Below are positions 41,563 through 58,833 of a stretch of DNA of 61,019 nt, one piece after another. The position numbers and the translations under genes were made by a program. The notes beneath the pieces were generated by a model that was not told where the DNA came from, did not search any database, and worked only from the letters and a program-made list of their open reading frames with translations. The number at the start of each line of letters is the position of its first letter. Position 1 is the first letter of the stretch. This stretch comes from Chrysochromulina tobinii (Eukaryota > Haptophyta > Prymnesiales > Chrysochromulinaceae): the NCBI GenBank assembly GCA_001275005.1, contig JWZX01002355.1, positions 1 through 61,019 of the forward strand, written 5' to 3'.

Positions 41563-43094
41563 TCACCAGAGCGAGGGCTGGGCGAGGGGTCCGCTTGGCC
41601 TCCCGGCCGCACCGTCGGATCCGGGCGGCGGGCTTGGGCTGCGCGCCGCGGCGCGCCGTGCCTTGAGTGCCGCCTGGCTGCCATACAGGGGATCCGGCCC
41701 TTGCATTGGTGCGGCGACGCCGTGATACTGCGGCGCCGGCGCATACTCGTACGCGTCACTGGGATGATACCGTGGCGGCGACGGCGGCAAGTTGTGTGGC
41801 TCCGGAAGCCTCGGCTGCTGAAGCGCCGGCGTGCCAGCTGCTAGCATCTCCATCGGATTGGGGACGCCGCGCGCCGCCCTCCGTCGAGCTTTGAGCGCCT
41901 CTTGGCTACCATAGTCGTTGGGTGGGGGCGCCGGCTGCACACGCGGCACGTGATTCCCGGCCTTCATCGCCGTCGGTGGTGCCAGTGGCGCCCCTGCTGC
42001 CATCATCTCCACCGGCGACGGCACTCCGCGCGCTGCTCTCCGCCGTGCCCTGAGTGCCTCTTGCGAGCCATACTCTTGATTTGGCGGTGGTGGTACGTTG
42101 ACGTAGCCGAGGCCGTCGAGGTACGCGGGCTCGGGGCCGCCGCCGCCAGGGTAGCCTCGGCCGACGGGTGCGTAGCCTATGCGGTATTGCTCCGGTGGCA
42201 TGGTCCTTTCCGGAGGGTTGGCGCCACCAAACAGCGGATTCGAGCCTGATGAGGGAGGCAATCAGAGCTGTGATCAGAGGTGTTCAGTGGCCATCAGTGG
42301 CCATCAGTAGCAATCGAGGCTCGAGTCTGATGGCTCGTGCCTTGCGCACGGCGGCGAGTCTCAGCTGCTTGCGCGTCCGCCATTTGATCCGGCCGCAGGC
42401 CATTAGTCAGTCCTCCACCAGCGGCGTGTCCTCCACCAGCGGCGTGTCCTCCACCAGCGGCGTGTCCTCCACCAGCGGCGTTGCGCTGCATCGATCTGTT
42501 GAACTCGTCAAAGGTCAGCAGGCCATCGCCATCTTCGTCCGCCTCCATGAAGGCCGCTGCCGCGTGCTGCTGCTGAAACTGCTGCTGCTGCTGCTGCTGA
42601 CGCTGCTGCTGCTGCCGCCGTTGCTGCTGAATTTCTCGTTCTTGCTCCTGATCCTGTTGCTGCTGCTGCTGCCACTGCTGCTGCCGACCGATCAGACCGA
42701 GCTGCCACGGCTGCAGCGAGCGTTTTGTATCTTCTCCGATCACGGTGATTTCCTCATCCGAGATTCGGCCGGACCGTCCGCGGACGGTCCTTGTTGGCAT
42801 GCCGCCGCCGAAGCTGCTGCTGCTGGAACTACCGGCGCCGCGGTCTCCTCTGCACAGTGTCTGGATTTGTGGCGGAGCAACTCTGCGACAAGCGGTGAGC
42901 ACTGGCCCGTCTGCGGCCATAATCTCGGCCATGCTGCTGCCCCTTTGCGACTCTTTGATTACCTTCCACCTTTCCTCATTGTCGACCTCAGGAGGGACCT
43001 CGACCGCCTGCCTGCCGCTCCGATGAAGGCTTCCCAGGATATCTGAAGGCGTCCGAACCGTCGACGGGAAAGGCATGCCGCTCATGACCGGCAT
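41563..43094 (-). CDS. EF-hand, polyglutamine and YGSQ-repeat protein (2 exons)
   Basis: Exon 1 runs 43094-42350 and exon 2 42245-41563, giving 475 aa. Intron 42246-42349 (104 nt) is GTGCGC...CATCAG and joins the reading frames exactly (codon split 1/2). Exon 1: Gly/Ser linker, a strongly Gln-rich segment (bases ~42562-42690; coiled-coil-like), one canonical EF-hand ADEDGDGLLTFDEF, then four copies of HAAGGG. Exon 2: Pro/Gly-rich with three copies of a YGSQEALRARRRAARGVPSP-type unit, the third degenerate, in an otherwise disordered chain. Exon 2 alone has no ATG start, which supports the splice. Calcium-responsive scaffold is a guess; function unknown. It is divergent from the gene at 43299 (204 bp). 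Confidence 0.78.
42246..42349 (-). repeat. Intron containing CTGATKGCCW decamer array (copy B)
   Basis: Read on the minus strand, the intron holds CTGATGGCCA twice in tandem, then CTGAACACCT, CTGATCACAG and CTGATTGCCT, followed by CTCATCAG at the acceptor. A near-copy of the acceptor region (CATCAGACTCGAGCC versus CATCAGGCTCGAATCC) occurs 17 nt after the donor. Confidence 0.85.
42408..42482 (-). repeat. Four 18-nt tandem repeats encoding HAAGGG-type units
   Basis: The coding repeat is near identical at DNA level (CACGCCGCTGGTGGAGGA, last copy followed by CTG) and lies just after the EF-hand. It implies recent slippage or unequal exchange. Confidence 0.85.
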
Positions 43095-43298
43095 TGGTTC
43101 AACTTTGGGCCAATTCCGCAACGTGTCAGACGAAACTCGAAGCCGGATCTGCGTCCGAGAGAGTAGACGAGTACATCAAAGCAAGCAAGCAACATCGATC
43201 TTCGCGTGTCCCACCGTCCCTTCCCCACTGTATGTACATTTCTCGTCCTGCCGTTCCGAAACATACCGCACCGCACTTTCCGCGCTACAAGTACCGCT
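43095..43298. promoter_or_regulatory. Short bidirectional upstream region
   Basis: 204 bp separate the divergent ATGs of the EF-hand/polyQ gene and the Cys-rich gene. The latter frame continues upstream to a GTG at 43206 and encodes a hydrophobic run (VCTFLVLPF), so a signal sequence from an earlier exon is possible. No clear TATA box. Confidence 0.45.
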
Positions 43299-44969
43299 AT
43301 GCCGACTCCCATACCTTGGATGACGACAGCGGCGGCGGCGGCAGCAAACGAGAGCGCGATATCCGCCGCATGCGAAGACTTCTATGCTCGCGAGGAGCCC
43401 AAAGGGCACTGCCATTGCCTTGGGCCGAACGATAACGCGACGGCGAGCATCGCAGCGGCGATGGCGTCCCAGAGACCGTCTCTCACTATACACACTCAGG
43501 ACAGAGGCGGGACGAGTGGCCTCGCGCTACTTCTCCGTGGTGGCGCGTATCGAGGCTCGATGGACAACTCAGCTGCCGAGCGTGAATCTGCGCAGCTGCG
43601 GTGCGTGCAGTCCGCGATGCGCCGGCTCGTGCAGCCTCTTGTAGATGACGGTGTGAGGGTGCGAGTATTCATGACCGTATACGACAACTTGAATGCGACG
43701 GCCTTGGCACTGCTGCGCGAGCCTTTTGGCAAGCACCTGGCCACGATCACCACGATCGCGGCGCGCGAGTCTGAGCAGCTGACTATGACCGCCAACGCGC
43801 TCGCCAGCTTTCTGGCGCACTGTGAGGAACAGCGAGAGGCCTTCGACGCGGTCCTCCTCACGCGGCTGGATCTCTCTTTTAAAATGGATGTGAGGGCGCT
43901 CCTCGGCCCGCCGTCGCAGCTGCGCGGAATTCGCTTCCTCTGGCAGGAGCTCGAGGCCGGCACCAAATGGCGGTTCCTCTGGCCGGCAGCCTACCTTGGC
44001 GCGTTTTCAAGCCGCCTCTCATCAAGCGACATTGCGCACCTCAATCTCACCCTGGCGCGGCAGAAGCGTGAGCGCAGCCTGGTGCTCACACCGCCCTACT
44101 GGCGAAGCACGCACCGGACCGCGGACACCCTCCACGCATTCAGCTTCCGCCTCTGCCGCTGCTTCTACCGGGCCGTTCGGATGGAGATGACACGGGGCTG
44201 GGCCGCCACCCCTCGCCCCGCCTCGCCCGAGGTGCCGATGCATGTCGTGGCCTGGCGGCCTACACCCGTGACCAACCACTGGCTGCACAAGATGCAGTAC
44301 CACTTGTGGCGCGCGGTGCAGGGCCACATGGGCGTCCTCGTGCCGAATGGAACTTTTGACTCCAACCCTTGCAGCACCACTTGCATGCTCAACCCAGTGT
44401 ACGACATCCTGCCGCGGATGGATTGGGTCGTGCGCAGCGGCATCTGCCAGTCGCCGGACGAGTTTGTGTACGATCCGATCAGTCAGACCCTCTGCTGCCC
44501 GAGCCCCGACTATTGCTGCCCGAATAGCGTCCTCTCATGCTCAGATCCGAACGCCATCTTATTCGACGCCGCAGCCGCGGGCGCTGGGCGCGGCGTGCCT
44601 CGAGAGACTATTGAGAGCGGATGGCGGCGCCACTATCTGCAACGTTCGGGCCTGATGCCCAAACCGAACTGGAGTGCGCCGATCCCAGGCACCCAATGGC
44701 GCCGCGCCATTTCAGATGCAGCGAGCCGGTTGGCCGAGACGGCGTGCCCATCAAGCGAGTGGTCGGACGGCGAGACTGGGCGCACCGGATGCCTCTTCGC
44801 CATGACCGAGCCAAGCGTGCAGCTTGTTAGAGACGTTTGGCTCCATGCGCCCGAGTGGACGACGGCTTGGCCTGTGAATGACGACGAGTCCACGACCAAG
44901 AGCCAGGCCACCCAGGCCCTGCGAGAGGCCTCAACGCCGGTGGGCCGCCGTCTCAGATCGGATGCGTGA
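43299..44969 (+). CDS. Large protein of unknown family, glycosyltransferase-like layout, Cys-rich C-terminal part
   Basis: 556 aa from the ATG at 43299. Residues ~75-290 show alternating strands and helices reminiscent of GT-A enzymes: LALLLRGGAYRG, RVRVFMTVYDN, then AVLLTRLDLSFKMDVRALLG, where TRLD sits where a DxD-type metal site would be. The central part is aromatic- and His-rich (MHVVAWRPTPVTNHWLHKMQ). A Cys cluster follows (CSTTCMLNP, then LCCPSPDYCCPNSVLSCSD). There is no TM helix in the ORF itself. I do not recognise the family with confidence. Secretory or Golgi location is suggested by the many Cys and Asn-Xaa-Thr/Ser sites (NAT, NLT). Confidence 0.6.
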   Translation: MPTPIPWMTTAAAAAANESAISAACEDFYAREEPKGHCHCLGPNDNATASIAAAMASQRPSLTIHTQDRGGTSGLALLLRGGAYRGSMDNSAAERESAQLRCVQSAMRRLVQPLVDDGVRVRVFMTVYDNLNATALALLREPFGKHLATITTIAARESEQLTMTANALASFLAHCEEQREAFDAVLLTRLDLSFKMDVRALLGPPSQLRGIRFLWQELEAGTKWRFLWPAAYLGAFSSRLSSSDIAHLNLTLARQKRERSLVLTPPYWRSTHRTADTLHAFSFRLCRCFYRAVRMEMTRGWAATPRPASPEVPMHVVAWRPTPVTNHWLHKMQYHLWRAVQGHMGVLVPNGTFDSNPCSTTCMLNPVYDILPRMDWVVRSGICQSPDEFVYDPISQTLCCPSPDYCCPNSVLSCSDPNAILFDAAAAGAGRGVPRETIESGWRRHYLQRSGLMPKPNWSAPIPGTQWRRAISDAASRLAETACPSSEWSDGETGRTGCLFAMTEPSVQLVRDVWLHAPEWTTAWPVNDDESTTKSQATQALREASTPVGRRLRSDA

Positions 44970-45877
44970 AAGACTAAGTAGTACCATCACAGAAGTGAGA
45001 AGAGCGCCGTGTTTTTGTTAGCCTCTTTTTTGTTTTTACGCTGGGCCGTGCGGCGGCGACACCGACGTGGTCGTATCGTTAGTCTCACATGTAGCGCGGG
45101 GGCGGCGTCCGCGGTCGCCGCAACCCGCATGGAACGCCGGTCTGGCGTGCCGGCGTGTCGGCGGCGACCCCGCTCGCTCGCTCACCGGTTCCGAGAGACA
45201 GTTCTGTAATATGGCGACCGCGTCGACGACCATCGCAGCACGACCTCGGTCCTGCGCGCCGTCGCGTGCTTCGGGTCGTACCGAGCTGTACCAGTGTAGC
45301 TACGGACGACGCTCGACGGCGCGCCGCCGGGGACAGGAGTCGGCGCGGTGGGGCTCGGCAGTGGCGCTGCCCTGGCGCTGCTCCCTGCCTTTTGGGATTT
45401 GGCGGGGGTGGGTGGCCGCACCCGCGTGGCGCGGAGGTTAGCGAGTCGGCTCGGTTACCCGCTTCGTCTTACCCCCCCGAGCGTCGCGCTCGCGGCGCGA
45501 GCGACGAGAGGCACGGGCGCGCGACTCAGAAGAAATAAAGATCACGCTGGGTGCAGAGTCCACCGTTTCCGGGATCTCGCACTTGGACATGAACACTACG
45601 TTTGCAGGCGTGCGCGGGGGCGGTGTTTTCGGTTCTTGGTTCATCTTTAGACTTTACATAGGATATCATGTACGCGCGGACCGGGGGTAGCGCGTTACTG
45701 ACGTTTTCTCTCGTCGAGATCTCTCGGAAATATTGCCGGCAATCGGAGGGCTCTCGAGCTCTAGCTGGCGGCGGGACTCGCACGTAAAACTGTCGCCGCC
45801 CGCTTCCATGGCCGCACTGGTCGCTCTCCTGTGCTCTCGGCTCTCCGTGTTTCCCGGCTGCGTCCTCGCCAGGGAGA
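44970..45877. other. Intergenic region, about 900 bases
   Basis: Between the convergent Cys-rich gene and the PsbP-domain gene. It is GC-rich and repetitive in feel. One minus-strand ORF (45438-45644) is listed separately as doubtful. I see no tRNA or other RNA gene. Confidence 0.5.
45438..45644 (-). CDS. Doubtful small basic protein
   Basis: 68 aa with an ATG start. The N-terminal half is Pro/Ser-rich with PETVDSAPSVIFISSES, then a strongly basic tail (RARASRRSRRERDARGG). No family recognised; it could be noise in GC-rich spacer. Kept because the composition changes from a plausible folded or acidic half to a basic tail and because it stands alone in a 900-base gap. Confidence 0.2.
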   Translation of the reverse strand: MNQEPKTPPPRTPANVVFMSKCEIPETVDSAPSVIFISSESRARASRRSRRERDARGGKTKRVTEPTR

Positions 45878-46589
45878 TCAGAATCCTTTGGGTACGAACG
45901 AGGCGACGATGTTCTTGTACAGCTCCTGACGCTTCGGCCACTTCTTGTTGGAGGTGACCGTGGTGACACGGTACAGCTTGCCCCGGTTGATGCAAAGCGC
46001 GAGCAGCTCGTGGTACAGCTCGCCCTTGAGCTCGAAGGTATACACGAGGCTCCCCTCTACATCGCTCTCCTCCGCTTTCACAAGCTCTGCATTTCGGCTC
46101 TTGGCGAACTTGGCGCCGACGGTCGGCAGGTCACCGAGCGCCGAGACGGAAGTTGCCGTGGCCACGGGCGATGTGCTCACCTGCACTGTCGTCTCCGGCT
46201 CGATGACGTCCTGGAACTTGACGTCGTACACGCCCGGATCGGACTCGAACTTGTTCCAGCCCTTTGGTGAGTAGAGCTTGTAGCCCTTTTGCGTGTCGAT
46301 GTACGGCTCCAGCAGGCCGCCCATCTGTGGAGGCGGGAGTCATGGTGGCATGGGTAAGACAAGAGCTTAGGGGGCGGCTGCTCGCGGCGCGTGAGCTGCG
46401 TGATCGCAAGGCGCGGACCTTGCTGAAGGTGGGCTCCGCGGCGCTGGCAGCGTGCAAGCCGCCGAATGCTGCGGCGGCAACGGTGGCTCCCGCAGCCTGC
46501 ACAGCGCTGCGGCGGCAAAAAAGCGGCGGCGCCGCAGTCGGCGACGTCGGCAACAGCAGCGCGGTGAGCGAGCACAGGACAGTCAGCAT
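45878..46589 (-). CDS. PsbP-domain thylakoid-lumen protein (2 exons)
   Basis: Exon 1 runs 46589-46419 (57 codons) and exon 2 46324-45878, giving 205 aa. Intron 46325-46418 (94 nt) is GTCCGC...CACAG, phase 0. Exon 1 encodes a tripartite leader: ER-type signal (MLTVLCSLTALLLPTSPTA), a short transit region, then a twin-arginine thylakoid signal (FCRRSAVQAAGATVAAAAFG) ending in AASAAEP. Exon 2 encodes the PsbP fold (YIDTQKGYKLYSPKGWNKFE; GDLPTVGAKFAKSRNAEL; ELYHELLALCINRGKLYRVT; ELYKNIVASFVPKGF). By family it acts on the lumen side of photosystem II or as an assembly factor; which PsbP/PPL subgroup is not resolved. It is divergent from the CX9C gene (165 bp). Confidence 0.9.
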
Positions 46590-46754
46590 CGCGAAATGGA
46601 GATTATAGCGAATCTACAGGGAAGTGTCTCTTATCAGAAAGAGTGTTCTCTGGGCTCGACCAACACAACTCGCACTGGATCGGACACGTTTCGAACTTCC
46701 TTGTTCGGATTCCTCCCACGGTGTTTCCATCTCAAGAGAAAGTGCATTAGCGGC

Positions 46755-47203
46755 ATGTCGTCGGCGGAAGATGCCGATACCGTCGCCTCGTTCCGACGCA
46801 TCTTCGCGTACCCATTCGACTGCGCTACGTTGCAGGAGGCGCACACGGCAGTGCGCACGGCCCACGTGTTCGATCAGCCAATTGTAAAAGACTATTCCCC
46901 AACTTACACAGCACCGTGCGTCCGGTCGAATCACGGCTCTTGCAGTGTGTGCAGGATCATGGCTGGCAGCGCTGCACGGCGACCCGCGAAGCCATGGATG
47001 CGTGCGTTGAGTCAGCTGAGCGGCGTAAATTCTTTGTCGAGTCCGAGTGTCGACGATGGAGACGACGCCATCAGACGTGCCTTCTTCAACACGGTGCCGA
47101 CTGTCAGGTACAACTCAGCACTCTGCTGGCATGCGTAAGGTACGGACAAGTGTCGAGCGCGAGCACCAGCCTCGCGCGTGCCGGCACACGCGTCTTTTGT
47201 TGA
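46755..47203 (+). CDS. Quadruple CX9C (double CHCH) protein, likely mitochondrial intermembrane space (2 exons)
   Basis: Exons 46755-46850 and 46946-47203 give 117 aa. Intron 46851-46945 (95 nt) is GTGCGC...TTGCAG, phase 0. The splice is supported because it creates an exact CX9C motif across the junction: C23-X9-C33. Further motifs follow as C42-X9-C52, C67-X9-C77 and C85-X9-C95, i.e. two twin-CX9C hairpins. Such proteins are oxidised by Mia40 in the intermembrane space. A two-CHCH layout occurs in complex I subunit NDUFA8-type proteins, but identity to NDUFA8 is not shown here. A GTAAGG within the C-terminal codons (bases ~47138) could be another donor, so the last ~20 residues are uncertain. 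Confidence 0.75.
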
Positions 47204-47476
47204 CCCGAAGCGCCACTGCGATGACCAAGCCGCTAATGTGTGCCTCCCCTCCCGTTTTGCTTGTGGACACCCGGAGCGCAGGGATGCCTGCGCACGGCAG
47301 CCACCGCCCACGCCGCTCCGTCCGCCGCCTCCGCTGCACGAGCCGACGTCGCCGTGATGCGGGAGAGAAATGTCTAAAAAATATGACGAAACGCCGTCTT
47401 GGGCTTTTTTTCCCATGCCGGGCGGTGCGAAACCGCTCTCTGTTGCGCTGGTCTCGCCACTCGCAGTGTCATCACG

Positions 47477-50109
47477 ATGCCAGCGTATGTACGTGTACAC
47501 GAAGAGCGCTGGAAAGCTCTGCCACCGGAGATCTCTGCGGCGCTGCAGGCTCGGCTAGCACCGTATCGGAGCGCCCCTTCCCTTTCCGCCGATGGACTGC
47601 TCGCGACCCGAAGCGGCAGCAGCAGCACCACCATTCCGGAGCGCATCGAGGTCTCCGCGCTCGCTGACACGCGGCCGCACGAGAATCGGCCTTTGAACCC
47701 ACCTGTGCGCCTGCTCGCCGCCGCCGCCGCTGCCGAGCGCGCCGAGCGCATGGGCGCCAACCAGCAGCAGCAGAGGCAGCAGCAGAAGGAGCAGAAGCAG
47801 CAGCCGAAGAAGGAGGAGGAGCAGCAGCTGCTGCGCTGGCAGCAGCGCTGGCAGCAGGAGCTCGGCGGCGCGCTCGCCGTGGAGTTGCCGCCGCCGCCGG
47901 AGCCGCCGCCGTCAGAGATCCCTGAGGAGTTTTGCGTGTACGACGCCCAGTTGACCGGCCAACAGCTGCCACTCGCTTCGTCCAAGGTGAAGATCTTCCC
48001 GACGACGAAGCCGTCGAACCGGTCGGAGGTGGTGCTGCTCGCGCGCTGCCTGGAGGCGATGCTCGCCCAGGCGGGCACGCGCACCGCGGACGCGCTGTGC
48101 GCATGGGACGTCACCTTTGGCGAGTTAGTGCGTCAGGTGTGCATGCACTGAGGTGGAACCGCTGATGGCCACTGATGTCCTCTGAGTGCCACTGATGACC
48201 GCGCTCTGGATGGCTCCCCCGCCAGGTCTTCATGCACTGCTCGGAGCGAGGCGAATTGCTTGGGCGCGTGCGGCGCGCGATGCGCCATTACCTGGGCGAA
48301 CTCGTCGGGCGAGTGCGTGCGATGGAGGCGGGTGCACGGGAGGTCGCCATCCGGGAGCTCGAGGCCGAGAATGCCGAGCTGCGCGAGAAGCTCGGGGAGA
48401 CCAAAACCTTGGCCACCCGCTCCAAGGTCTTCGGCCGGTTCCAGCGTGCGGTGGCTCAGGAGCGCTCTGAGCGTTTCTCGGTAGGCGCGCTGGCCGAGAG
48501 CAACGTCCCACGGGAGCTGAGCACCTCCTCAGAGGCATGTCTGCTCGCGTACAAGGCGTGCAGCGAGCAGGAGCAGCAAGGGTTCTGGCGCGACATGGTC
48601 AGCGCTACCCCGCCCAAGGATCGTGCGCCCCTGCTGCAGCTCGTCTTCAAGTCCTTCGCGGAGCCGAAGCGTGCGGAGCTGCTGCGCGGCCTGCACGCCG
48701 AGATGACGACCGAGTTGTCCACGCCGTGCGTGCAGGCGGTTGCTGATCGTCTACCGTTTGAGAGCCGGCTCGGGATCGTCGAGGGGCTCCTGCGCAACTT
48801 TTCGTCCTTCGAGACGCTGACTTTGGTCGAGTTCCTGCCATACGTGTGGGGTAGCCTTGCAGTCAACTACGCGGCCAAGCTGCTCGCTCTGCTCCAACCT
48901 TCCGATAGGTCGCAACTGGTGAAGGTGCTCATTTTGGAGGAGAAGGCGGCGCGTGAGGCCGAGGAGGCCAGCGCAGCCGTGGCCAAGCTCTCAGCGGCCG
49001 AGACGGAAGCGGCCAAGCGGCTCAGCCTCGCTGCCGACCCGACCGAGCTGCTGCCGAGTGAACTCGACCATTGGCGCAAGTTCGCGCCCTCGCCGCCGCC
49101 GCCGCCGCCCCCACCGAAGGAAGGCACGGAGCTCACCTCAGATGGGGCCAAGGATGCCAAAAAGGGCGGCGAGCCCGCTCTGAAGGAGCTCCTCCTACTG
49201 AGCGCCGAGTGCTTCGAAGTCGCCGCCTCCTATGCTGCGCGCAAGCTGGCACGGCGTGTCGGAGGCACTCAGTACGAGGACGCCGAGACGCCCGACCCCA
49301 GCTTTCCACAGATTGTGTTCAATGTGCTGCTGCGGCGCAACATCCCGCCGCCCAAGCCCGGGCTCCAGTCGACGCAGTGCGCGCGCGAGGCACTGTGGAC
49401 GCTGTTGACGGGTGCGCGACAATTCGGTAAGAGCCACCCGAGAGCGCGACTGCTCGCGCGCCTCTGTGGGGTGGTGAAGCATCCGTTCCACGCGCGTCGT
49501 GTCGGGCTGTGCATGCGTGTGCTTGTCGAGCTGCTCGGCGCGGAGCCCATTTTTGAGGACGAGATGTGGCTGCCGATGGCGCGTAGGGAAGATGCCCGGG
49601 GAGACGAAGCGCGCGACCTGCCGAAACTGATCCGCGAGCGCCTCGAGGTGGAGTTGGGTGGCAGCACGAGAGTCACTGCGCTGCTGCAGAGGCTCGAACG
49701 TGAGATCGTCGAGACGCCCAAAGAGAGGCAGTTGCTCGCGGCGAGGCACAAGGACGCGCCGTTTGCAATCCCGACGCAGATCATCCACGCCGACACGGCG
49801 CTGCTGCTGCTCTGCGATGCCTTCGACGCCGCTCGGATGGCACACGCGGCGCGGCTGGCCACACTGCACGAGCATCTCGAGGTGACGCGCGTGAGCGGCG
49901 GCCTCGACGCGCACACCTTCGCCACGTTGCTCCAGTCGTACGACCCGACGCTCGACCAGCGGCGCGCGCTCGACATTCTCGTCGAGTGCGAGCTCGGCCG
50001 CGAAGAAGGGGATGGACGAGGCGGACCCTTCCAAGGGATCCCGAGGCACGTTTTCGTGCGCGTGTGCGACGCGCACGACGTTCGCAAGGGCGGCAAGGCG
50101 GACGTGTAG
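47477..50109 (+). CDS. Axonemal dynein light-chain-domain protein, AXDND1-like (2 exons)
   Basis: Exons 47477-48136 and 48226-50109 give 847 aa. Intron 48137-48225 (89 nt) is GTGTGC...GCCAG, phase 0. Residues ~150-280 match the inner-arm dynein light chain (p28/DNALI1) domain: TFGELVRQ at the end of exon 1 joins VFMHCSERGELLGRVRRAM, followed by a coiled coil (AIRELEAENAELREKL). Upstream is a Gln/Lys-rich tract (QQQQRQQQKEQKQQPKKEEE) and polyproline. The long C-terminal half is helical, with a nine-Pro run (~509), and is unrecognised. p28 itself is ~250 aa, so this is an enlarged axonemal relative, comparable to AXDND1. Expected in the flagellum. Confidence 0.82.
48137..48225 (+). repeat. Intron containing CTGATKGCCW decamer array (copy A)
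   Basis: Four head-to-tail decamers, CTGATGGCCA, CTGATGTCCT, CTGAGTGCCA and CTGATGACCG, occupy ~48162-48201. The intron begins GTGTGCATGCACTG and the downstream exon begins GTCTTCATGCACTG (12 of 14 identical). Confidence 0.9.
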
Positions 50110-50634
50110 TGCCGCGTGCGCGCGTGGCCACACTCGACGGCAAGTGTATCGCTCTCGGCTTGTAATTGTGATATCCGATGCACTTAGTACCGACGCTCCG
50201 ACGGGGTAAAGGGTATCTACGTAGTCGAATCGCTCAGATAACCTAGTCGCCGTACCGGTATAGTAATTAATCATTCAGAACATGATCTCAGACGAGATGT
50301 GTGCGCAACGCTCGCCGCACGCGCCGGCGTCGTCGACGATCGGTTCTGTCTAGCCTAACGTTCGGTTTGTTTCGGTGTGCGTACTGGCTACTGCGGTGTC
50401 GCACGAGCGACGAGGCGGGACGCGGCACGCGGGTACACGGCTCCACGCGACGCCACAGTGTGTCAGTCGTTAATCTTGAATCCGTTCATGGTCGTGATGC
50501 CCACGAGGACTCACGCCCGGGCGCCGCGGGTCCAGGCCAAATAAACACGCGAAACATATCGAAACTATGCCGCTCGCAAAGAAGCCGCAATGCCCCCTCT
50601 TCGTAGGACCCGCAACAGGCCGACTGCTATGCGC
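50110..50634. other. Convergent intergenic region
   Basis: 525 bases between the AXDND1-like gene and the 2OG oxygenase gene. Short ORFs only; nothing recognisable. Confidence 0.5.
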
Positions 50635-52131
50635 TCACCCTACAGACTGCACCCGCCAGCCAGGAGCCAGCAGTGCGTGCCAATTGAGCATAAACTGCTG
50701 CACGTCGCGTCCTGACTGAGGGGAGAGGATCGTTCTCCACAGCTCTCGGGCGATGGCGGCATCGTCCACGGCCTCGAAGCCAGTCTGAAGCCATGCCTGC
50801 TCTACAGGCTGCGTGCGAAAAAAGGCTGGCACGGCAAAGCGCGTCCCTGAGAGCAGAGGAGAGACCTCGTGCATGTTCTCCCACCCAGACGAGAAGATGA
50901 GCGCGCTTCCGATGGACGGCGCCATCGGGCGGAGGGTGCGATCGGACTCTTCGGGAATGGTCGCCTCGGCAATGGTCGCCTCGGGAGTGGACTGCTCGGC
51001 TGCTGCTGGCGCCGCCTCGTCCTCGGACGCGCCGGTGATGGCGGTGCCCGTTCTCTGCGGATCATTGAATGCAAACGTGCCGCCGTGGAAATCTTCGGAA
51101 TGGGTGCTTAGGTAGAGGACGCACGAGTAGTGGAATTCTGCAAACGAGGACTCATCCGCATGCAGGCCGCCCTGCTTCTTCTCTTGCGCGCCAGCCAGGC
51201 AAGCGACGAAGGCCTGGGCGGGAACTACGGTGGCTAGAGGCAGCCCGTACTCATGAGCGATCGCGCGCCGCATCCGCTCGATCAGGCGCACAAAGACCAG
51301 GGTCGTGCGAAGGGAGCGAAAGGCGCACTTGGCGAGCTCAAAGTGGTGCAGAGGGGGTGTCATCGAGCTCTCGAGCAGCTCACGGAACGCCTCGCACTCG
51401 TGGGGGCTGGCAAAGAGAGGGAAGGCGACGCGGGAGCAAGCCTCGCCGCAGGCCCCTCCCTCGCACACGCGGCCAGGCTTGAGGGTCAGCTTGAGCAGCT
51501 CGTCGTTGAACAGCTCGGATCCGCATCCTTCGTCAGCAGGCTGCATGCAAGTCACATTGGTCACGACCTTCTCGCGGAGCAGTAGCTGCTCGAAATCCTG
51601 ATCGAATGCCTGGTGTAGCAGCCGTGGCACATCGTCCGAGAGGTCGACGGTCGAGTCGGGGGGGAGGAGTTCACGAGCCTCACAGAGCAGGATGGCAGCT
51701 TCGAAGGCATCGAGCTGTGGGGAGCCATTGTGCCCAGCTGGCGAGCCATGGTGCCCAGCTTCCTGCTGCTGGCTCCCTGTGCCAAACTTGGCCGCCCTTT
51801 GGGCTCGGCGCCCGGAAGCTTCTCGATTCTCGCGCTCCAGATCGCCGTGGTCGATCGCAGGCGCAGCCGGCAGGGCCGAAAGCGCCACCAATGCATCTTC
51901 TAAGCAGGTCTCTTGTTGTTCGAAGTGCGCCAGCAATGCTTCAGCCAAGCTTGCCTCAGCTGCATCAACGTCTGTCTCTGCGAGCTCGATCGCTTGTGAG
52001 GTAGTGACCGCACTCATGGGCTTAGGTGGTGGAACCTCTTTCTCCGTCTGGGGCTTTGCTCGAGACCGTTGCTGATGATGACGAACCCAGCCTTCGCGAG
52101 CCGAGCCACGCCCTTTTGACATGCCATCCAT
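50635..52131 (-). CDS. 2OG-Fe(II) oxygenase (prolyl-hydroxylase superfamily)
   Basis: 498 aa from the ATG at 52131; 52122 is an alternative. The frame is open further upstream into the neighbouring gene but that is not credible. The N-terminal half is Ala/Glu-rich and helical, with Cys residues (VTNVTCMQPADEGC; RVCEGGACGEAC). The C-terminal double-stranded beta-helix has the Fe ligands H324 and D326 (GGLHADESSF), H421 (NMHEV) and the 2OG-binding R431 (GTRFAVPAFF), with FHGGTFAF between. The layout resembles prolyl 3- or 4-hydroxylase/leprecan-type enzymes. An Ala/Glu insertion (~368-398; TIAEATIPEE) lies between the motifs. An upstream hydrophobic stretch in the same frame could be a signal anchor if the start is 52434. 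The substrate may be secreted proline-rich proteins. Confidence 0.85.
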   Translation of the reverse strand: MDGMSKGRGSAREGWVRHHQQRSRAKPQTEKEVPPPKPMSAVTTSQAIELAETDVDAAEASLAEALLAHFEQQETCLEDALVALSALPAAPAIDHGDLERENREASGRRAQRAAKFGTGSQQQEAGHHGSPAGHNGSPQLDAFEAAILLCEARELLPPDSTVDLSDDVPRLLHQAFDQDFEQLLLREKVVTNVTCMQPADEGCGSELFNDELLKLTLKPGRVCEGGACGEACSRVAFPLFASPHECEAFRELLESSMTPPLHHFELAKCAFRSLRTTLVFVRLIERMRRAIAHEYGLPLATVVPAQAFVACLAGAQEKKQGGLHADESSFAEFHYSCVLYLSTHSEDFHGGTFAFNDPQRTGTAITGASEDEAAPAAAEQSTPEATIAEATIPEESDRTLRPMAPSIGSALIFSSGWENMHEVSPLLSGTRFAVPAFFRTQPVEQAWLQTGFEAVDDAAIARELWRTILSPQSGRDVQQFMLNWHALLAPGWRVQSVG

Positions 52132-52456
52132 CCTGACAGCACGATGCCTTGACCTGGTTATGGCATCGATCCTGCCATTAGCCACGAACGGTTGATGAAG
52201 CCCACAGACAAGAGGGGCCAGCAACGCCAGCCATCGTCCGCAAATCAACTTGACCTGGTCTAGTGGGAAGCGAACACGAGCCACACCTATCCGGATACGC
52301 GGAGTAGCGGGGAGGCCGATCACAAACAGCGAGATTGCCAATGATGGTAGGTTGCTTTTTTTTGGAGGTTTGGCACAACGCGACTTTTGTTCCACCAAGT
52401 CTAGACTCATCGGGGAGACACTTACTACTCTCATTGTCACTCTCCACAGGCTGCTA
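52132..52456. other. Short spacer between two tandem oxygenase genes
   Basis: 325 bases holding the 3' UTR of the prolyl 4-hydroxylase and the promoter of the second oxygenase. It contains a T-rich run (~52347-52355). No separate gene. Confidence 0.5.
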
Positions 52457-54150
52457 CTACTGATAGCCAAAGCCAAGGTGCTTGGAGCGCACCCAGCCGT
52501 TGATGGCATACTTGATGCCGCGCGCGGGCGGCACGCCCTCGTGCAGCGTGCGCTCGTCGGGCTCGCCATTGTCCAGCACGTCATTGAACACGAGCGCGGA
52601 GTACGCGGTGGGCGTCACAGAGATGTTCAGGCGCGGGAAGCCGGTCTCGCCTCCCTCGTCGACGTCGTTGAGGTAGATGAGGAAGGTGAAGTGCCGGTTG
52701 CCATTCATCCAGGTCTCGCACGCGTTGTAGTAGTCGTGATGCGGCTTGTAGAACTCGCCCGGATGGTAGCGCACCGCCTGCAATCAGAGGCAATCAGAGG
52801 CAATCAGAGGCAATCAGATGCAATCAGTGGCCATCCGTGGCAATCAGAGGCAATCAGAGGCCATCAGAGGCCATCGGCATGCAAGCGCACCTGAAGCGGC
52901 TCCAAGTTAGGCTCAGGGTAGCCACAGTAGAAAGCGATGCGATGGCGCACAGCACTCACCACCGGGTCGCCCGAGGCGAGAGTGGCTGAGTTGGAGGTGC
53001 GCTTGTCATCGGCGCCCGCGCGCGCGGTCGAGGAGCGATGGAAGTGAGGCCCCGCGAGCTCGATGAGCTTCTGCGCCTCGTACTCCGTCACGAAGTTGTG
53101 CAGCACACGCACTCGAGGTGACTCGGAGATCATCTGCACGCGCACCGGCCGCAAGTCGGCCTCAGAGGGCCGTCCAGCCGCGGAGGTGAGCTTGGCGGCC
53201 TTCGAGGGCAGCGCGGAGAGCGGTACGTCCGGGAGCTCGTCGTGCAGCACGCGCGGCGTGAGCCGCGCGTGCGCGGACGCGACGCGCGGGCAGCGCCGCC
53301 AGCGCCGCCGCCATGGCACTGGGTCAAGGTCGGCGCCGGTGTAGCGCTCGTCGACGGCGTCATCGTATGGAAGCATCGGTACGCCTTCGGCGGATCCCAG
53401 ACGCGGCTGGGAGGTCAGGTTCGGCAGCGCGCTCGGCGGCACGTTCGGGCACTGCGCCCCGAGTAACGCGTGCCGTAGGCCGATGTGGTGGCAGCGGCTC
53501 GGCCGGTGGCGCCTCACGCGCGCATCCATGTGTGGCGCGTGCTTCATCTTTGGGCGGGTGACCGTTTTGGAAGCAGAGGCTGGGTCGAGAATGGCACACG
53601 AGTATGGGCAGCGCTCGAGCATCACCTGCCCCGTCCAGATGTCGCGCGCCCGACACTCGCCGCGGCGCGCGGCGGCGGCGCACTTGTCTGCGTCGTCGCG
53701 GTCGCGCGCGAGCGGGCACTCGAACGAGCGCGCGCACGGCTTCGATTCAGGCGCCACGCCGCACGAGCGCAGCAGCTCGCACGAACGCCTGCACGAGGTG
53801 GCCATCCACTCCCGATTGGACTCGCACTCGCCGTCGGTCGCCCAGTAGAAGCAGTTGCCCTCGAGGTCCTCGGTGAGGTTGGCCTTGAGCGCGGTGTAGC
53901 ACGAGGCGCGGCAGCGCACGAGCGCGACGTCGGCATGGCAGCGGCCTTCCTTGACGAGCCGGCTGCACTCGGCCTGGTCGGCGGTGTCTCTCTCACTCAT
54001 CGAGCACGATTTGGCGCATTCCTTCTGCATGAACTTGGGATTTTTATCGCACTCGCCGATTTCGGCCCAGTGCGCGCAGTTGGCGTCGTTGTCTCGAGCG
54101 GCGCTCGCCGCGAAGACGAGCAGGATGAGCGCTGGCGGCACTAGCGCCAT
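52457..54150 (-). CDS. Prolyl 4-hydroxylase with four ShKT-type Cys modules (2 exons)
   Basis: Exon 1 runs 54150-52891 (420 codons) and exon 2 52777-52457, giving 526 aa. Intron 52778-52890 (113 nt) is GTGCGC...TTGCAG, phase 0. Signal peptide MALVPPALILLVFAASAA. ShKT-like modules are at ~24-49, 62-84, 100-124 and 157-185 (for example NCAHWAEIGECDKNPKFMQK). The catalytic P4H domain is at ~335-526: VRVLHNFVTEYEAQKLIELA, then EPLQ at the exon end joins AVRYHPGEFYKPHHDYY. The iron ligands H433 and D435 and distal H499, and the 2OG-binding K509 (GIKYAINGW), are all present, and the exon join is needed to complete the domain. It acts in the ER on secreted Pro-rich proteins, making 4-hydroxyproline for O-glycosylation. 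SPPP proteins at both window ends are natural candidate substrates. Confidence 0.93.
52778..52890 (-). repeat. Intron made almost entirely of CTGATKGCCW decamers (copy C)
   Basis: Nine to ten head-to-tail decamers (mostly CTGATTGCCT and CTGATGGCCT, one CGGATGGCCA) run to the very end of the intron, where the last unit, CTGATTGCAG, supplies the acceptor AG. The intron starts GTGCGCTTGCAT and the downstream exon has GTGCGCTACCAT three bases in (10 of 12 identical). Confidence 0.95.
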
Positions 54151-58485: not shown

Positions 58486-58833
58486 TTTCAGAGATTGCCC
58501 AAGACGACGTCCCGATCGGTATGGACGGTATGACGCCAACGTTCTGAACTTGCTTACGTGTACTCGCGTACAGTCTATCTCTGGTGGTGTGTATGGCTTG
58601 CAACAACTAGGTACAGAACGCCAATAGCCCTATGGCTGTTTCACTCGAGTTGCAACAAGTCAAGTCAAGTCAAGTCAAATCCAATCCAATCAAAATTTTG
58701 ATGTCGGTCGCACTTTATCACATCGTTTTCACGCCTGATCGACTCGCGTGACATGCAGCGTGAGGTTCGTTCCCAGCGATTCGAGTGCATGGGAAATTCG
58801 TCAGGCGAACCAGATTTCGTCGAGCTCCGAACC
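58486..58833. promoter_or_regulatory. Bidirectional upstream region with CAAGT pentamer repeat
   Basis: 348 bp between divergent ATGs. At ~58657-58678 the pentamer CAAGT/CAAGTC is repeated about four times and grades into CCAAT-like units (AATCCAATCCAATC). CCAAT-type boxes are plausible promoter elements for the ferredoxin-like gene. An ATG at 58753 in frame with it is a possible longer start. Confidence 0.5.

Follow-up and report, generated by a model that had tools for sequence, protein, structure and literature searches.

Decamer-array introns, often flanked by direct duplications, in Chrysochromulina tobinii suggest a route of intron gain

Introns of three genes in a 61,019-nucleotide stretch of the Chrysochromulina tobinii genome (contig JWZX01002355.1; this whole stretch is hereafter called the window) contain head-to-tail arrays of 10-nt units with the core CTRAY, a branch-point consensus. 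Such arrays recur throughout the genome and are often flanked by direct duplications. In our best explanation, to which we assign a probability of about two in three, they belong to spliceosomal GT-AG introns, many of which were gained by events that left a short splice cassette between two copies of an exon stretch X (X-cassette-X), the arrays being lengthened by slippage. These data suggest a frequent and recent route to new introns that leaves the protein unchanged. The origin of new introns is a long-standing question, in which few events are recent enough to be read, and here the birth scar, X-cassette-X, would often still be visible.

Introns built from tandem decamers

A preliminary description of the window had reported decamer arrays in introns of three genes. 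Direct reading of the sequence and Tandem Repeats Finder (TRF) confirm this observation: tandem decamers are present at all three positions and units with a CTRAY core occur in each array. The intron of an EF-hand/polyQ gene, on the minus strand (42246..42349; GTGCGC...CCCTCATCAG, with splice sites picked by coding continuity), holds about five units of the CTGATGGCCA type (42256..42307), three of which are exact CTGATKGCCW, and closes at its 3' splice site with a recurrent 3' end, TCCCTCATCAG, that can be read directly (42246..42256). On the plus strand, the intron of an AXDND1-like gene (axonemal dynein light chain domain; 48137..48225) is supported by a Pfam PF10211 match and a PDB alignment that span the junction. 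Its four degenerate units (48162..48201) form the weakest array of the three, with 69% matches in TRF and a period identity of 0.67, just below the strict cut of 0.68. The third intron, in a prolyl 4-hydroxylase (P4H; ShK and 2OG-Fe(II) oxygenase) gene on the minus strand (52778..52890), carries ten units of the CTGATTGCCT / CTGATGGCCT type (52778..52877), found both by TRF (period 10, 9.6 copies, 89% matches, score 143) and by a motif caller. The other two arrays are reported by TRF as short, also with period 10. In the window as a whole CTGATKGCCW, with at most one mismatch allowed, has 33 matches compared with 16.2 +/- 4.3 in shuffled sequence, and none of 100 shuffles reached 33.

The assembly searched comprises 53.15 Mb in 2,253 contigs. 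Detailed work was carried out on an unbiased sample of 261,019 bases, consisting of the window and, from every 22nd contig between C11 and C429 (20 in all), the opening 10 kb. It also covered targeted loci chosen for holding arrays, namely nine of 30 overlapping 3-kb loci around array matches, and eight pieces of 801 bases. A strict caller returned 42 array clusters, 22 from the unbiased sample and 20 from the targeted loci. The 22 may be compared with none in each of five trinucleotide-block shuffles of the sample and one in the reversed sequence. Genome-wide, where pattern counts include overlapping matches, two exact units side by side (CTGATKGCCNCTGATKGCCN) are found 2,552 times and the reversed pattern not at all, in keeping with the earlier proposal that the arrays have spread. 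Three CTRAY cores spaced by 10 nt have 9,862 matches against 3,601 for the reversed control; the equivalent numbers are 258 and 85 for a spacing of 9 nt, and 1,395 and 1,286, barely an excess, for 11 nt. The high control value at 10 nt probably comes, on our own reading, from the arrays: the complement of a CTGATTG unit contains CAATC, which is a match to YARTC. Among periods not divisible by three, period 10 is also prominent in the unbiased sample, with 30 arrays, in 21 of which CTRAY is present in at least 60% of the units. Rough scaling from 22 arrays in 261 kb yields about 4,500 in 53 Mb, so that the copy number seemingly runs to thousands, with a wide error because the arrays clump. A more permissive caller was dropped, having called 92 arrays in shuffled sequence.

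The strand of the surrounding gene was called for each array from the flanking coding signal, using a codon model trained on the long reading frames of the sample. This signal was on the same strand as the array in 37 of the 42 strict clusters, on the opposite strand in none and unclear in five. The sense orientation that had been noted for the three introns of the window extends to the wider set. An earlier and looser caller gave 29 sense, one antisense and three unclear among 33 clusters, and in our own reading the single antisense case (near 58654-58693) is a CAAGT pentamer run and not a decamer array. We do not infer that intergenic DNA is free of arrays, since random places were also unclear in 99 of 600 cases, as compared with 3 of the 22 unbiased arrays. 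Insertions in the wrong orientation would fail to splice and be lost, which would produce a sense-only pattern. Because selection against an unspliceable orientation would suffice for this bias, targeting to genes need not be assumed.

Exact joining of the exons

GT-AG pairs picked by coding continuity provided models for 37 of 40 array clusters; three had no candidate. In four genes (CNNM, mannosidase, P4H and AXDND1-like) the junctions could be compared with homologues, and for the other modelled introns the evidence is coding continuity. The junction of a CNNM-type transporter gene (L034; ..RFTSK|VSSEIMTP..) is gapless over 10 residues on each side in 113 of the 120 homologues listed, out of 1,415 found. 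Four of the remaining seven were inspected; three begin past the junction and one is without the stretch. A mannosidase gene (L026) has two array introns, the first junction being gapless in 119 of 119 spanning homologues and the second in 116 of 117 (120 listed), and a PDB alignment is gapless across both. At the P4H junction, 23 of 27 homologues and the PDB prolyl hydroxylases align without a gap, as does a dynein light chain in PDB at the junction of the AXDND1-like gene. Exact removal of the arrays at the predicted GT-AG sites is thus supported by protein homology, not by RNA. Borders that appear to join codons exactly, together with a U2 small nuclear RNA in the genome (one match of 134 bits, contig C1578), are what would be expected of U2-type spliceosomal introns. 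Among the matches listed, the best organism-named one for mannosidase is Tisochrysis lutea (66%), followed by plants (55%) and Diacronema lutheri (53%). For CNNM the first to carry an organism name is Achlya hypogyna (34%), with Emiliania huxleyi at 43%, and in a third homologue search the best named match listed is E. huxleyi (59%). T. lutea and E. huxleyi are haptophytes.

These comparisons bear on the idea that the arrays are not introns at all, being instead coding or regulatory minisatellites. Each unit carries a stop (TGA, or TAA in CTAAT units) and, as 10 is not a multiple of three, three successive units stop all three frames, so that unspliced messages would end early. Homologues of the tested genes join exactly at the predicted sites, by which this idea appears already contradicted for those genes, and we regard it overall as extremely unlikely.

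Direct duplications flank the arrays

To compare the flanks of each array, 100 nt were taken from either side with the decamers masked, and cross-locus pairs served as the null. The 43 arrays in this set are the 42 strict clusters and the AXDND1-like array. A direct duplication scoring at least 12 is present at 24 of them, where 0.78 would be expected; 12 of 43 score at least 16 (0.10 expected), and 11 score at least 20, a value not seen in 1,704 null pairs. As a control, the flanks were compared in inverted orientation, and a single array reached 12 or more. The unbiased part of the set behaves similarly (14 of 23 at 12 or more). Duplications at this threshold measure 12-64 nt, and 12-31 nt in all but one case; several adjoin the array directly, and they are often exon sequence. 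With unmasked flanks 25 of 46 reached 12, at a null fraction of 0.091; the masked test supersedes that version.

Ten of the 37 modelled introns have a duplication, with a score of at least 12, that keeps register with the splice junction. Relative to the junction it spans -12..+19 in L034, 0..+20 in L026, -1..+22 in L038 and -5..+16 in L032. The paired copies read ccaag|GTGAGCTCGGAGATCATGA with gtag|GTGAGCTCGGAGATCATGA in L034, ga|GTACGCGCTCAAGAGC with ag|GTATGCGCTCAAGAGC in L026, and cccg|GTGCGGAGAATACTC with ccag|GTGCGGAGAATACTC in L032. Among the introns of the window, the AXDND1-like one alone is convincing (score 12.5; the null fraction at 12 or more is 0.018). Its upstream copy, CGTCAG|GTGTGCATGCACTG (48131..48150, plus strand), holds the 5' splice site and the downstream copy, CGCCAG|GTCTTCATGCACTG (48220..48239, plus strand), holds the 3' splice site. 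The EF-hand/polyQ and P4H introns, at 9.5 and 8.0, are not convincing. A possible remnant in the latter, GGTGCGCT at the start of the intron (52884..52891, minus strand), matches GGTGCGCT close to the beginning of the exon downstream (52768..52775, minus strand), an 8-nt agreement with a score of 8 and a null fraction of 0.33 that is not significant by itself.

Introns were also called de novo. Most of the 74 non-array introns among the 87 candidates were doubtful by eye, and this set was not used as a control. In-register duplications of at least 12 occur in 4 of its 13 array introns versus 1 of the 74 others, and that lone case (L038, 26.5) is itself an array, of CTGAGTGCC/CTGAATGCC units.

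The most economical reading of these patterns is a single type of event. On entry of a short splice cassette into an exon, the exonic stretch X at the point of entry would be duplicated. The cassette would be either a run of CTRAYNNNNN decamers, sometimes ending in TCCCTCATCAG, or the module described in the next section, TGCATGCAAGTGCTCACCACGGCGC followed by pyrimidines and CAG. The branch point would come from the cassette, as would the 3' AG of some introns, and the 5' GT from X. Where X contains AG|GT, splicing between the two copies would restore the original mRNA. A duplicated exon stretch that lacks a branch point could in this way become an intron at once, the insert supplying one. The decamer array would afterwards be lengthened and homogenized by slippage. 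Break repair with template switching is one candidate for the underlying DNA event, and retro-insertion of intron 3' ends is another. We infer the order of events, branch-point use, slippage and selection from the patterns presented here.

A second module with comparable flanks

The second module, with which some introns end, consists of TGCATGCAAGTGCTCACCACGGCGC, a pyrimidine stretch and CAG. Its 16-base core has 1,039 matches genome-wide, compared with one for the reversed pattern. The flanks were compared at 24 places, after removal of overlaps and with at most two mismatches to the core. Duplications of at least 12 are present at 13 of the 24 (0.57 expected) and are 14-60 nt long; that at L039 6745 comprises 44 identical nucleotides. 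In 7 of the 13 duplicated places the second copy begins 0-4 nt before the exon, at the AG. Some introns contain both an array and the second module (L032 8357-8639, L057).

The position of the second copy at the AG is also what would be expected from retro-insertion, in which target-primed reverse transcription copies an excised intron RNA, whole or as its 3' part, into exons; the insert would have its 3' end complete and its 5' end cut short, with long duplications of variable length. The duplications do vary in length, and there is a 3' polarity, which fits the X-cassette-X reading as well: CTCATCAGG follows two CTGAT units at a distance of 3-33 nt in 1,355 places in the genome and precedes units in 190. 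The same appearance would result, however, if an AG were selected for at the junction, and the array units are too variable for one template; as a general account we consider retro-insertion unlikely.

Four tandem copies, each of about 73 nt and made up of a piece of exon and the second module, are present at L039 8613-8862. They look as though newborn introns multiply by unequal exchange. A second higher-order tandem case is found at L050 8773-8901.

Differences between close relatives

An environmental CNNM homologue (P0001) has 31 extra residues, of which the first eight, ACKCSPRR, are the second module in translation and the last 15 are an exact repeat of the preceding exon. This insertion is absent from the CNNM gene of the present genome and from P0002, and ACKCSPRR was found in none of the 119 other CNNM homologues listed. 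One insertion at least is recorded as differing between strains.

Two further matches end inside introns. The reading frame of P0129 (98% over 60% of the query) enters a mannosidase intron and stops there, its tail reading as decamers, GALIATDCHSWCLIATDRH versus GALLATDCH in this genome, followed by a stop. That of P0249 (93% over 58% of the query) enters the P4H intron and ends with VCLHADDL, which agrees at six of eight residues with the read-through of this genome, VRLHADGL, again followed by a stop. Because both frames end within introns, the P4H and mannosidase introns seem to be present in sister strains with changed sequence. Two other matches, P0121 (88%) and P0122 (85%), read uninterrupted across both mannosidase sites, and they could represent genes that lack the introns, or else transcripts.

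Conservation of the unit and the alternative of old introns

Units are fairly homogeneous within one array and differ between arrays, with 16 different consensus units among 34 motif-based arrays. A motif-free search detected 63 period-10 runs, 53 of which have CTRA in their consensus. In these 53 runs 361 units were kept, 56 with more than three differences having been dropped. Departures from the run consensus number 69 of 1444 at positions 1-4 (CTRA) and 230 of 2166 at positions 5-10 (p = 7e-10). The lower variation of CTRA fits selection on a branch-point core; seeding could equally produce it. The still more striking conservation seen in motif-based units, in which the C, T and A are invariant and the core A is mutated in 1 of 219, was set aside as largely built in by the caller, the motif-free effect being smaller. 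In the 35 modelled introns that have a CTRAY, the A of the last one (taken at least 8 nt from the end) is located 8-90 nt from the intron end. A CTRAY upstream of the AG is what a U2-type branch-point motif would look like, and we treat it as a putative branch point. ATCAG forms the intron end in 7 of the 37 modelled introns.

The preliminary description had offered growth by the addition of branch-point modules as one origin of these introns. Homogeneity within arrays fits that proposal, which leaves out the most telling observation, namely that the arrays are bordered by duplications. A related alternative holds that the introns are old, that the branch-point region of each was expanded by slippage to a minisatellite and kept as helpful or neutral, and that the duplications are later accidents. 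Homogeneity within arrays and difference between them, the reduced variation of the core, the 19 arrays of 43 that have no duplication at 12, and the higher-order tandem copies at L039 and L050 would all be accommodated by this scheme. It has difficulty with duplications that are in register with the junction in 10 of 37 introns, with those that in several arrays adjoin the array directly, and with the finding that an unrelated second module has equal flanking duplication. The uninterrupted P0121 and P0122 sequences also speak against it, if they are not transcripts. We judge this alternative unlikely.

Several points weigh against gain by X-cassette-X events. The support for splicing is at the protein level. 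The 19 arrays without a duplication at 12 include those of the EF-hand (9.5) and P4H (8.0) introns of the window, some duplications are out of register or not clearly exon, and two of the top ones (L003, L017) contain array-like sequence. The longest second-module match (L039 8767) enters a tandem copy of the module, and another (L038, 14.0) is module sequence itself. Core conservation within arrays is explicable by seeding instead of selection. The targeted loci were selected because they bear arrays, and the arrays cluster, L032 carrying 7 of the 22 in the sample, so that the counts are partly non-independent. Finally, a scan of all direct repeats for GT..AG in register found 60 of 170 pairs, compared with 72 for a TG..GA control, and gives no support outside array loci because protein repeats swamp it.

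A broader interpretation is that the cassettes contain only the 3' half of an intron (the branch point and, in some, the AG) and draw the 5' splice site from the target exon, a long stretch of which is duplicated, that two unrelated cassettes make use of one kind of event, so that the event and not the sequence recurs, that the process is active at the level of strains, and that the arrays are pools of interchangeable branch points. We advance this tentatively, considering it a little less probable than its failure in one or another of these parts.

Comparison with known modes of intron gain

In the tandem genomic duplication model (Rogers 1989; Hellsten 2011, per PMC3443670 and PMC4974935) duplication of an exon segment with AGGT provides both GT and AG. 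As in that model, an exon segment with the splice junction is duplicated in register (10 of 37) and the message would be restored; unlike it, where the intron is duplicated exon only, a separate high-copy cassette is found between the copies. In Daphnia pulex, gains attributed to staggered breaks have exon repeats of 4-12 bp, AT-rich inserts (78%) and, commonly (55 of 90), internal repeats (PMC4202315). The internal repeats are shared with our introns, but the matched stretches here are mostly 12-45 nt and the inserts are recurrent cassettes. The duplications measure 12-64 nt at arrays and 14-60 nt at the second module, shorter ones being indistinguishable from chance.

Introners provide the closest parallel in spirit, and the preliminary description had called the arrays introner-like. 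That many introns arise from recurring sequence, and that some take one splice site from a target duplication, is as described for introners in PMC9860276. The likeness does not extend to the 5' ends, which are not common to the introns and, where a duplication is visible, are often a copy of the intron's own exon. Similarity near both intron ends, which that survey required, was accordingly not seen, as judged without an all-against-all comparison. The survey also removed families with abundant short repeats. Our arrays, unlike the second module, are tandem repeats (of decamers), and arrays like these would probably have been excluded from it, a likely blind spot. Target duplications are reported there as 3-9 bp in some earlier families and 4 bp in the survey's own examples. 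These include a Chrysochromulina introner that has 4-bp duplications and carries the 5' splice site, whereas here it is the 3' side that is carried. In the introners of Amoebophrya (PMC7789003) the direct repeats measure 3-5 nt and the inverted repeats 8-20 nt, and splice sites are often non-canonical. There, as here, direct repeats overlap the exon/intron boundary and intron families have spread; GT-AG borders and long direct repeats distinguish the present introns.

Could the introns nevertheless be classic introners, that is, a mobile DNA element resembling a miniature inverted-repeat transposable element (MITE) that inserts with a target site duplication and is then spliced? The abundance of the second module (1,039 core matches) and of the common unit variants would be consistent with this, as would the direct repeats that flank the insertions and the precedent of a Symbiodinium introner with its own 3' site and a 5' site from the duplication (PMC9860276). 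Yet duplications are found at only part of the loci and are long and variable, matches running from 12 to more than 40 nt against the 3-9 bp or 4 bp of that survey; there is no common 5' end, and the inserts are often tandem repeats. We therefore think it very unlikely that they are classic introners.

No description of such decamer arrays was encountered in the accessible parts of PMC9860276, PMC4580454, PMC4202315, PMC3443670, PMC4974935 and PMC7789003, a coverage that excludes supplements, most subscription journals and preprints. Within this literature the combination of a branch-point cassette with a long, in-register exon duplication is without precedent among the systems compared.

Related sequences and further repeats

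A viral collection contained no match to the decamer array and one to the second module, at the end of an IMG/VR contig (L059 4368-4554) with phage-like reading frames. By eye, CTGACGAACC repeats lie at this contig end between two copies of about 34 nt and are followed by the second module. The contig is probably a chimeric assembly holding algal DNA. A prokaryote collection gave a single match, three exact CTGATGGCCA units at L060 6741-6770 (minus strand) in WBXE01000042.1, which is binned as Verrucomicrobia. With 57% GC and without the second-module core, it is likely to be unrelated.

The recurrent 3' end CTCATCAG (for example at 42246-42256) is the reverse complement of CTGATGAG, so that RNA pairing between a unit and the 3' splice site is possible. 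Some period-10 runs lack CTRA and are of the CTTGATCTCC / GAGATCGCAC type (L036 8655-8712, L038 2670-2744, L039 149-215); some of the runs without CTRA have a YTGAY core, and the one in L038 belongs to a modelled intron whose in-register duplication measures 23 nt. Finally, an 11-nt unit, (CTGATTGCATG)n, is present on many contigs (for example C33, C80, C115, C191, C201 and C224), a distribution that suggests copying between loci.

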